From: Utricularia gibba
Taxonomy: Eukaryota; Streptophyta; Magnoliopsida; Lamiales; Lentibulariaceae
DNA length: 64,000 nt
Reading direction: 5' to 3'
Assembly: GCA_002189035.1 (NCBI GenBank)
Contig: NEEC01000007.1
Span: 372,001-436,000, forward strand
The notes under the pieces were generated by a model. It saw nothing but the letters and a program-made list of their open reading frames with translations, had not been told where the DNA came from and made no database searches. The position numbers were made by a program, and so were the translations under genes. Positions 8,455-58,680 of the stretch are shown here, one piece after another. The stretch's first letter is position 1, and every line of letters starts with the position of its first letter.

Positions 8455-10094
8455 ATGGCTTCTTGCACTTCGACGGCAAGAATGCTGCTCTGCTTGTCGT
8501 GGATTGCACATCTCGCATTTGCTGTGCCATCATCTTCCACGTCAATCCAGGAAAGGTTCTTCGAATGCGTCGTCGACAGATACGCATCTCCGGTGCCTTT
8601 TTCCGATGAGTTCTCCGCTCCGGACAACTCCTCATTCATCCCTGTTCTTCAATCCACTGCCCAGAACCTCCGGTGCCTGGTTCCGTCGGTTCCAAAGCCG
8701 CAGCTGATTTTCAAACCTAAGACGGATGCGCATGTCCAGGCGGCGGTGATTTGCGCCAAGGAAGAGGGGACTCACCTCAGGGTACGCAGCGGGGGTCATG
8801 ACTACGAGGGACTTTCGTACATTTCTGTCGCGGTGGAGGAGTTCGTGTTGCTTGATTTATCGAATTTACGCTCTGTTTCTGTGGATATCGAGAGCGAGAC
8901 TGCGTGGGCTGAAGCGGGGGCCACGATCGGAGAAGTTTATTACTGGATTTCAAGAAAGAGTGGGGTGTACGGTTTTCCGTCGGGGTTGTACACTAGTCTC
9001 GGAGTTGGAGGGCACATCACCGGTGGAGCTTACGGTGGTATGATGCGGAAGTACGGCCTCGGCGCTGACAACGTTGTCGATGCGAGAATCGTTGATTCCT
9101 CTGGCGAGATTCTCGACAGAGCCGCAATGGGGAAGACGTTTTCTGGGCGATCAGAGGCGGCGGCGGCGGAAGCTTTGGAATCATTTTATCCTGGAAACTG
9201 AAATTAGTGCCGGTTCCCAAAACCGTCACCGTATTCACCGTCGCGAAAACACTGGAGCAGGGGGCAGTGAAGATTCTTGACAAATGGCAACAAGTTGCTG
9301 ATAATATCGATGAAGATCTCTTCATGAGAGTGATAGCACAGCCGGTAAATTCCACCAACCCCGGTGAGAGAACGGTGATGACCCTTTACAATGCAATGTT
9401 TCTTGGCGGAGCCGAACAGCTGCTGACCGTGATCGGCAAAAGCTTCCCTGAATTGGGATTGACCAAACCCGCCACCACGGAAATGAGCTGGATCGATTCA
9501 GTCGTCTACATGGCCGGCTTTCCGAAGAACTCCTCCCCGGAGATTCTCCTCCAGGGAAAACCCACATTCCGAAACGCCTTCAAAGCCAAATCAGACTTCC
9601 TGAGAAACCCAATTCCCCAAAACGCAATCAAAGGCCTCCTGCAAAAGCTCCTCGAAGATGATTCCCCTCTGATTATATTCAACCCTTACGGCGGCAAAAT
9701 GGCCCAAATTTCCGAAACCGCGACGCCGTTCCCTCACCGGAAAGGCGTCATCTGCAAAATCCAATACGTGACAACTTGGCAGAACGATGACGCCGCTTCT
9801 GCATCCAGGCACATGAACTGGATCAGGGGAGTATACAAATTCATGACTCCTTACGTCTCGTCGTCTCCGAGGGAAGCTTATGTTAACTACAAGGATCTTG
9901 ATCTAGGAATGAACGGCAACGGGAGGAGTCATTTTCAGGGATCTTGCTTTGGATTCAGTTATTACAAGGATAACTTTTTCAGGCTTCTTGAAGTGAAAAC
10001 GAAGTTTGATCCTGAGAACTTTTTCAGACACGAACAGAGCATTCCTACGTTTCAGCAGCTGCTCGGGCGTGAAGAATTTGGTCTGATTCATTGA
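8455..10094 (+). CDS. Berberine-bridge-like FAD oxidoreductase 3, frameshifted
   Basis: Close paralogue of copy 2 in the same orientation. ATG 8455 opens a signal peptide ([19 protein letters not shown]). The frame then carries [10 protein letters not shown] and [11 protein letters not shown] (Tyr again instead of Cys). It breaks in [15 protein letters not shown]: the run at 9129-9132 is GGGG where copy 1 has GGGGG, so the frame ends at a stop at 9199-9201. From 9133 the other frame continues cleanly to a stop at 10092-10094 with all conserved BBE-domain blocks. With one extra G the protein would be about 546 residues, with a short extra tail after the usual QSIPT block. As no other lesion exists, a base-calling error is as likely as a young pseudogene. 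Confidence 0.85.
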
Positions 10095-10976
10095 GTAAAT
10101 GCTGCGCTCTTGTTGTTGCAATATTGAATAATTCAGGGGTGGTTTTCGAATATTCATAAATTACATTTTGACATTTGGAATGTTAAAAGCATTATTTTAA
10201 ATACATAAAATCAACGTTATTTAGGTAGTGGACCAGAAACGCACGGTCAGGATCGCGCCACCTGGGTGCCATCCCATCCCGGTAATTTCATTCACTGTCG
10301 TGGTACTTTCGCCCATTGAATCTCCCAAAAGAATCAGCGAATTCAACGGCGGGCTGCTTGGGAAATTCGGACATCTGCGTTATTATTCAGAGCTTTCTTT
10401 CACGCTAGGAATCTAAGCCGCATTGTTGTAAGTGGTGATTCGGTATAAGAGTTTTGTTGCTGCTTGATCCGCATCGGATCTTTGTTTTATTATCTGAAGC
10501 TGTTGGTTTCATCAATGGGTGTATATGAATTTGGCCCATAATCATTTTTTGTTTCATTTTCGGGTTTAGATTCTTAAAACTTCCCAGTCCTTTCAGTTTG
10601 CATCGCGTTTCTTTTCAAATACAATTTGACGTAGGAAAAGTTCCTGTTGGATTTTGTTTGATTTGAATTTTCAAGTTGAAGCGCGGCCAATTTACCCTTG
10701 AAGATACTGCATTTTCTTCCAGCCTCTTGTGGGTTGACCTACCTTAGCCTCATAAATTTCACATGTCTGATTCCGTTGGTAGTGCGGTTTTTCTTTAGAT
10801 TGGCAATGATAACTGGTTGGATATTAGTTTTTCTTAGAAAAAGCTGTGCTTTTTTTTTTTTTTTTGCCGTGCAGGCAATTGTTGCTGCTTATGGTTAAAG
10901 AATGATATCCTTACAACCACAGTTATTGTGATGCATTTTTGTCTTCATTCTTTACAGGTACATTTGTCGTATCAAA
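10095..10976 (+). promoter_or_regulatory. Promoter and probable 5' UTR intron of fatty acid 2-hydroxylase
   Basis: Spacer holding the promoter and leader of the next gene. A strong donor GTAAGT at 10428 and an acceptor TTTACAG ending at 10957 suggest a leader intron 20 bases before the ATG at 10977. A T17-like run precedes the acceptor. Inferred from splice signals only. Confidence 0.45.
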
Positions 10977-55978: not shown

Positions 55979-56305
55979 AACGGAATCACACGAGTTTTAT
56001 GCTCGTTAAGGTAGATGGGCCCCACCTTGAAAAAGTTGACTTTTTATTAGTATAATGGAGGATTAATCCTTCTCAAAACATTTGTTAGGGAGGGTTTTCT
56101 CATGAGTCAACTCCCAAATTTCTCTCCCCCAATAAAGATTGAAGCTTTGCTGTGACTCAGGGTACTGCAATTCTTGAGGTGTTCTTTTCACCAACTCGTG
56201 GCCCTCCGAAATGTAGAAAATTTCGTTAATTCGTGGTGCCCCTCGAAGAATTTGAGGTTTTTTCGGCGGGTTTTCAAGGTTTGTGGTATCATTGATTCCT
56301 TTCAG
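55979..56305. promoter_or_regulatory. Short divergent promoter, hydrolase / PPR gene
   Basis: Only 327 bases separate the two divergent start codons, so the promoters must abut or overlap. No TATA box is obvious on either side, as is usual for housekeeping genes. Confidence 0.5.
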
Positions 56306-58680
56306 ATGAATTCGTGTGTGTTTGCCATTTTAAATTCACGTTCTCATTTGAATGCGTCTACTCTTCGTTTGTTTTCATCGTTCATTCTCGAATATATACG
56401 TAGAGGAGATGGGAGTAGAGGATATTCTGCTGGCAGACAACGTGTTTTGGGTGGAAATGAGCAAATTCGTTGTGAAGAATCCTCATTTTTTAGCTCAGTT
56501 GCTAATAGGGAGAGTTGGGGTGAAGAGAAGTCCAGTCCTGATGCCTACAATGAGTCTGAAACAGAAGTTGGGAAGAGCGAGGAAGATATTGATGATGAAT
56601 TTGGGTTTTTGAGTTCATTCAGATTGACAGATGAAATCGCACCCGAATTTGAAGTTGATGAAAGTGAAAAACAACACCCTTTAGTTAGAGAGGCATGCCG
56701 ATTGATTGATTTCCGGTCATCATGGACCCCAAAACTGGAATCGGAGTTGAGGGGTTTGCTGCATAGTTTGAGTCCTAGCCAAGTTTGTGCTGTGCTTAGA
56801 TCTCAGTCTGATGAAAGAGTTGCTTTGAGGTTCTTTTATTGGGCTGACAGACAATGGAGGTATAGACACCACCCCATGGCATACCATACAATTCTCAAAA
56901 TGCTCAGCAAGACGAAGTTGTGCCAAGGGGCAAAGCGTGTTCTCCGGTTAATGATAAGAAGGGAAATCGAACTTTGGCCTGTGGATTTTGGTTGTGTGAT
57001 GGTGTCGCTCAGTAGAGCTGGCCATTTAAGGAAAGCTCTGCGAGTTCTGAACCTCATGTTAGGAGTTGGAGTTCGACTGGATATCTCTATTTGTAACACA
57101 ACCATCAATGCTTTGGTGGAAGGGGGTAAAGTGGAAATGGCGTGGAGGTTTCTGGAGAGGATGAAAGTGATTGGTATGTCTCCTAATGCCATATCTTACA
57201 ATGGCTTGATCAAGGGTTATTGTGAAAAAAATCGGATAGAAAATGCGATTTCTTTGATTGAGGATATGCCGTTAATGGGATGTCATCCTGATAAAGTAAG
57301 CTATCACACAGTTCTTGGGTTTTTATGCAAGGAGAAAAGGACTGATCAGGTGCGGTTTCTGTTGGAGAAGATGTCAAAGGAGAAGGAACTGCTTCCTGAT
57401 CAAGATACATACAACACTCTTATTCACATGCTTTCAAAGCATGGTCATTCAGAAGAAGCACTCGTGTTTTTAATTGAAGGAGAGGCGAAAGGCTTCCATT
57501 TTGACAAAGTAGGTCATACTGCAATTGTAAATAGCTTTTGTCAAGAAGGGAGAATTGACAGGGCGAAGGATATCATTGATAAAATGCTGATGAAGGGATG
57601 CAAACCAGATGTGGTGACATACACTGCTGTTTTGAATGCCTGTTGTAAATTAGGAGAGGTTGACAAAGCTAAGCAGTTGTTGAAACATATGTACAAGCAT
57701 GGTTATGAACCTAACTGTGTTTCATACACAGCCCTGCTTGATGGACTCTGTCGCATTGGCAAATCTTCGGAAGCACGAGAGATGATGAAGCTGAGTGCAG
57801 GGTGGTGGATTCCAAATGCAGTGACTTATGGTGCTCTCATGCATGGCTTTCGCCGAGAAGGAAAGCTACATGAGGCATGCGGCATGTTGGCTGAAATGAT
57901 CGAAAAAGGATTCTTGCCTTCCCCTGTTGAAATCAATCTCCTGATACAGTCTCTTTGTCAAGCGGGAAAACCAGATGAAGCAAAGAAGCTAATGGAGGAG
58001 TGTCTAAGGAAGGGGTGCTCTGTCAATGTTGTGAACTTCACTTCAGTAATCCATGGCTTCTGTATGAAGGATGATATAAATTCAGCCCTTTCTGTTTTTG
58101 ATGACATGTATCTGAACAACAAGAACCCCGATGCAGTTACATACACAGCTCTAATCGATGCACTTGCAAGGCGAGGAAGGATCGAAGAGGCCACTGCAAT
58201 GACCATCAAGATGCTTCAAAAGGATCTGCCCCAACACCAGTTACATACAGGTCTGTGATCCATCATTTCTGCCAACTGAACAGGGTGGATGACTTGCTGA
58301 TGCTGTTAAAACGAATGCTTTCAAGGCAAAGCTTCAAAAGCGTATACAACTTAATCATTGAGAAGCTTTGCTATTTTGGACATGTAGATGAGGCTTATAA
58401 ACTCTTGGGAAAGGTCCTGCGAACAGCTTCTAAAACTGATGCAAAAACATGCCATGTTTTGATGACCAAGTTTTTGAAGAATGGAGATCCTCTTGGCTCC
58501 TACAGAGTGGCTTGCAGGATGTTCAACCGAAACATGATCCCCGACTTGAAGCTATGCGAGAAAGTTTGTAAAAGATTGGTCTCGCTTCAGAAAACCAACG
58601 AGGCCGATATGCTTATGCTGAAGTTTGTGGAGCGTGGGCATGTCTCAGCTAAGGCTAGAGATAAGAGATACAACACCTGA
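56306..58680 (+). CDS. Pentatricopeptide repeat protein (At1g30290 type), one frame break
   Basis: Single exon; 791 residues with one correction. ATG 56306 is the first good in-frame start (MNSCVFAILNSRSHLNAST, an organelle-targeting type sequence); the open frame reaches back to about 56174 without another ATG. Some 15 P-type PPR repeats follow, e.g. SPNAISYNGLIKGYCEKNRI, KPDVVTYTAVLNACCKLGEV and NPDAVTYTALIDALARRGRI. The frame breaks in MLQKG-SAPTPVTYRSVIHHF: GG at 58222-58223 should be GGG, and the raw frame ends at 58256-58258. The next frame, from about 58224, continues with intact repeats to TGA at 58678-58680. It probably binds RNA in mitochondria or chloroplasts; the target is unknown. 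Confidence 0.88.

Follow-up and report, generated by a model that had tools for sequence, protein, structure and literature searches.

The closest described case is the PacBio/Quiver assembly of azuki bean, in which comparison with short reads revealed 38,889 deletion and 8,611 insertion conflicts, mostly in homopolymers (PMC4663752). Deletions in that assembly were more frequent than insertions, and insertions more frequent than substitutions, and Sanger sequencing agreed with the short reads at 91 of 91 tested indel sites (PMC4663752). Long-read indel errors in assemblies of small (bacterial) genomes are treated by Kastor (PMC12007338), who cites Watson and Warr 2019 on gene-fragmenting indel errors in long-read assemblies. 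For Utricularia gibba, assembly of PacBio reads with HGAP gave a contig N50 of 3.4 Mb (PMC5793159). The frame breaks described here resemble those of azuki bean in being mostly single-base deletions in short homopolymers, dispersed through a plant assembly. They differ from them in that the coding losses, as read in the assembled sequence, occurred at G/C runs only. The parallel to Kastor is that false frameshifts would disguise intact genes as pseudogenes, here in a plant rather than in small genomes.

We analyzed a window of 64 kb (C213:372001-436000) from a 100.1 Mb, 516-contig plant assembly, for which a first-pass annotation had claimed seven single-base losses. Breaks were judged by translating around all seven claimed sites and reading the frames by eye. 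Six frame breaks were present in the sequence, one each in BBE-like flavoenzyme 3, GlcNAc kinase, NF-YA, CAT (25164), BRCA1-like, and PPR genes, while the seventh, at 24502, is plausible. The rate in the window was six breaks in about twenty genes. At 9129-9132 (BBE-like flavoenzyme 3), 22374-22376 (NF-YA), 25164-25166 (CAT), 43783-43786 (BRCA1-like), and 58222-58223 (PPR), the frame changed without an intron: the conserved protein left one frame and resumed in another, with no space for an intron. Gene identities were backed by Pfam matches.

In BBE-like flavoenzyme 3 (gene 8365-10094, plus strand), the break is at a GGGG run at 9129-9132, within a 12-residue protein motif, with FAD_binding_4 matched in the left frame and the BBE domain in the right. 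Nucleotide comparison revealed a run of five G in two intact BBE paralogs where the broken copy has four. Three BBE-like flavoenzyme genes form a tandem array at window positions 3722-10094; two of these are intact. The N-acetylglucosamine kinase gene (plus strand; BcrAD_BadFG match), of which a single copy was found in the genome, is broken at a GGGG run at an exon end, 15815-15818, leaving the next exon (SGYGIASQAL) off by one frame. This break spans the exon-intron border and was judged from the motif GDWG/SGYGI. On the same strand, a GGG run at 22374-22376 breaks the frame in the NF-YA DNA-binding motif (RARGxGGRF; CBFB_NFYA match), and five paralogs from the same genome are open across the matching site.

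The gene for the CAT amino acid transporter (plus strand) is broken at 25164-25166, upstream of GYNELDPIAV, where three paralogs are intact; the identity of the lost base is not certain, and the codon most likely affected would accept either A or G. The other break claimed in this gene, at 24502-24504 near its start, sits in the poorly conserved N-terminus, with an alternative in-frame ATG just downstream. In the paralog L063, the start codon is in a frame one base off from that of the window gene, and this comparison makes a lost base plausible. On the minus strand, the PHD-like zinc finger of a BRCA1-like gene is broken at a GGGG run (CCCC in gene sense) at 43783-43786, with a zf-HC5HC2H match in the left frame; the first-pass annotation had placed this break 10 bases away, at 43793-43796. 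Finally, the PPR gene (56156-58680, plus strand) changes frame at a repeat boundary at 58222-58223, with Pfam PPR repeats matched on either flank but not in one frame.

It had also been claimed that one added G cures each break. For BBE, NF-YA, and CAT, we inserted each of the four bases in turn at all nearby positions and scored the results against intact paralogs from the same genome. G works, but it is not unique, as another base equals it at most sites. Specifically, all four bases score equally at the best position in BBE and NF-YA, a third codon position; A scores the same as G at CAT 25164; and codon reading permits A or G at PPR 58222. We infer that paralog scoring fixes the frame and not the identity of the lost base. 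At many sites, parsimony was the basis for placing the lost base in the neighbouring run.

Outside the window, we examined 240 kb of additional DNA, comprising 60 kb adjoining the window plus 180 kb sampled at nine further locations. A frame model without introns produced numerous spurious breaks; the intron-aware model used in its place missed NF-YA, NAGK, BRCA1, and PPR, and its sensitivity was roughly half or less. Five intronless or nearly intronless families (CAT, BBE, GRAS, BAHD, and RPE65) were searched genome-wide, and about 280 bases were read at each junction between two matches that differed in frame. UDPGT (PF00201) was dropped as an extra family because its matched stretch was too short to add much.

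Nearly all frame offsets between adjacent match pairs in the five families corresponded to one lost base, and losses exceeded gains. The changes were single-base length errors at homopolymer runs, occurring on many contigs and independently of gene orientation. Every clear loss was at a G or C run, with G/C accounting for 38% and A/T for 62% of coding runs of at least 4, and long runs were affected far beyond their share. None of the papers searched stated a preference of the Quiver consensus for G/C over A/T. Two NCED genes on different contigs were broken at the same run, and a C run was likewise the shared break point of two DELLA-like GRAS genes. By hand count in the genome-wide search, about 13 of 41 GRAS genes were broken. 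This rate resembles the six in about twenty of the window, which is therefore typical of the assembly.

We put at roughly 95% the probability that the breaks would be residual single-base deletions in short G/C homopolymers, left without strand bias by a long-read consensus lacking accurate short-read correction. Such a consensus would drop one base in a short G or C homopolymer; the dropped bases would stay for want of correction by accurate short reads; and the errors would be spread across the whole assembly, on both strands and in genes of both orientations. The window's assembly appears to be a PacBio HGAP/Quiver product, and the sequencing method, not the plant, presumably made the losses. 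The first-pass conclusion of an assembly error and not dead genes is well supported. In the plant itself, the broken genes are in all likelihood intact. The breaks belong to an ordinary, known class of sequencing-assembly error and are not new biology.

That the losses are real mutations, making the genes pseudogenes or dispensable duplicates in a fast-evolving, compact genome, is very improbable. Several of the genes do have duplicates, the deletion in one BAHD copy (L051) is larger, and degenerate-looking sequence occurs at a few loci. Polymerase slippage, if real, would also favour longer runs, which counts against an artefact. However, apart from the break, which is nearly always the only lesion, each listed gene has an open frame and conserved sequence on either flank. 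Further decay beside the frameshift, or a set of dispensable genes, was not what we found, and real mutation would mean that roughly one in three members of a regulator family were dead. The genome search turned up a single plastid-type EF-Tu gene, and this gene is broken, although its protein, read through the lesion, gives a gap-free alignment with solved EF-Tu. Breaks in both this gene and the single-copy GlcNAc kinase would hardly be tolerated by a living plant.

A consensus error that removes the base from plus-strand G runs only is likewise very improbable, and at genome scale it is already refuted. Strand bias is not expected in a consensus made from reads of both strands. In its favour, an added plus-strand G mends all six confirmed window sites (two-sided p = 0.03, noticed post hoc), so the claim that every lost base was a plus-strand G can hold within the window. 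It fails outside: among 24 single-base losses at G/C runs, comprising four genes from the frame model (NCED, plastid EF-Tu, F-box/kelch, and RCC1) and the family-search loci, plus-strand C was lost in 14 and plus-strand G in 10 (p = 0.54). Five ambiguous loci (L036, L040, L045, L050, and L052) were excluded from this count. Pooling the window with the outside losses gave 16 G versus 14 C (p = 0.86). That all six window sites can be read as plus-strand G is small-sample chance.

The first-pass annotation had further described minus-strand genes as intact. By the intron-aware frame model, this stands inside the window but not beyond it. The NCED gene on the same contig is broken at C213:458010, 22 kb beyond the window end, with a plus-strand C lost. 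The minus-strand genes with a clear loss in this model were NCED, plastid EF-Tu, F-box/kelch, and RCC1, in which the missing sense G is a plus-strand C; broken minus-strand genes include GRAS as well. Plus-strand G and C runs of at least 4 were equally common in 304 kb (550 and 560, respectively), so there was no strand-specific shortening, and no depletion of plus-strand G runs was found in the window or in the 304 kb. The lost base thus did not keep to one contig strand, and strand bias falls as an argument for artefact. Since the losses are unbiased by strand, the first-pass conclusion was right and its reason wrong.

Unrecognised introns are a still weaker explanation: two GRAS candidates (L039 and L047) and NPH3 turned out on inspection to be introns, but the conserved protein runs on across each listed site with no intron space. 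Equally improbable is that the short runs are real in the plant, arising from a deletion bias at G/C runs (e.g. oxidative damage at guanine runs), with the genes rescued by a later correction, either in the RNA or during translation.

With residual consensus error as the preferred reading, the frame breaks are ordinary as biology and useful as a warning about data quality. Unless this assembly is first corrected with short reads, gene counts and claims of gene loss or pseudogenes based on it would be in error, in some families for perhaps one gene in three.

Several candidates were set aside as single-base losses. L051 (C412:526830-527110) belongs to a cluster of related BAHD acyltransferase copies; it lacks approximately 16 bases relative to its neighbours and is possibly a real pseudogene. 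In L058 (C1:7462100-7462300), also a BAHD gene, the frame at a C8 run would be restored by removing one base or adding two; it is the sole candidate gain. L059, L060, and L062 were degenerate loci, and the apparent frame breaks at 14508 in L024 and 14307 in L030 were probably non-coding. At L026-L027 (C375:800001-820000) and at C213:354000-355200, long reading frames that switch frame repeatedly resemble decayed mobile-element genes. Within the window, a 13-base G run at 19811-19823 is far longer than the other G or C runs there.
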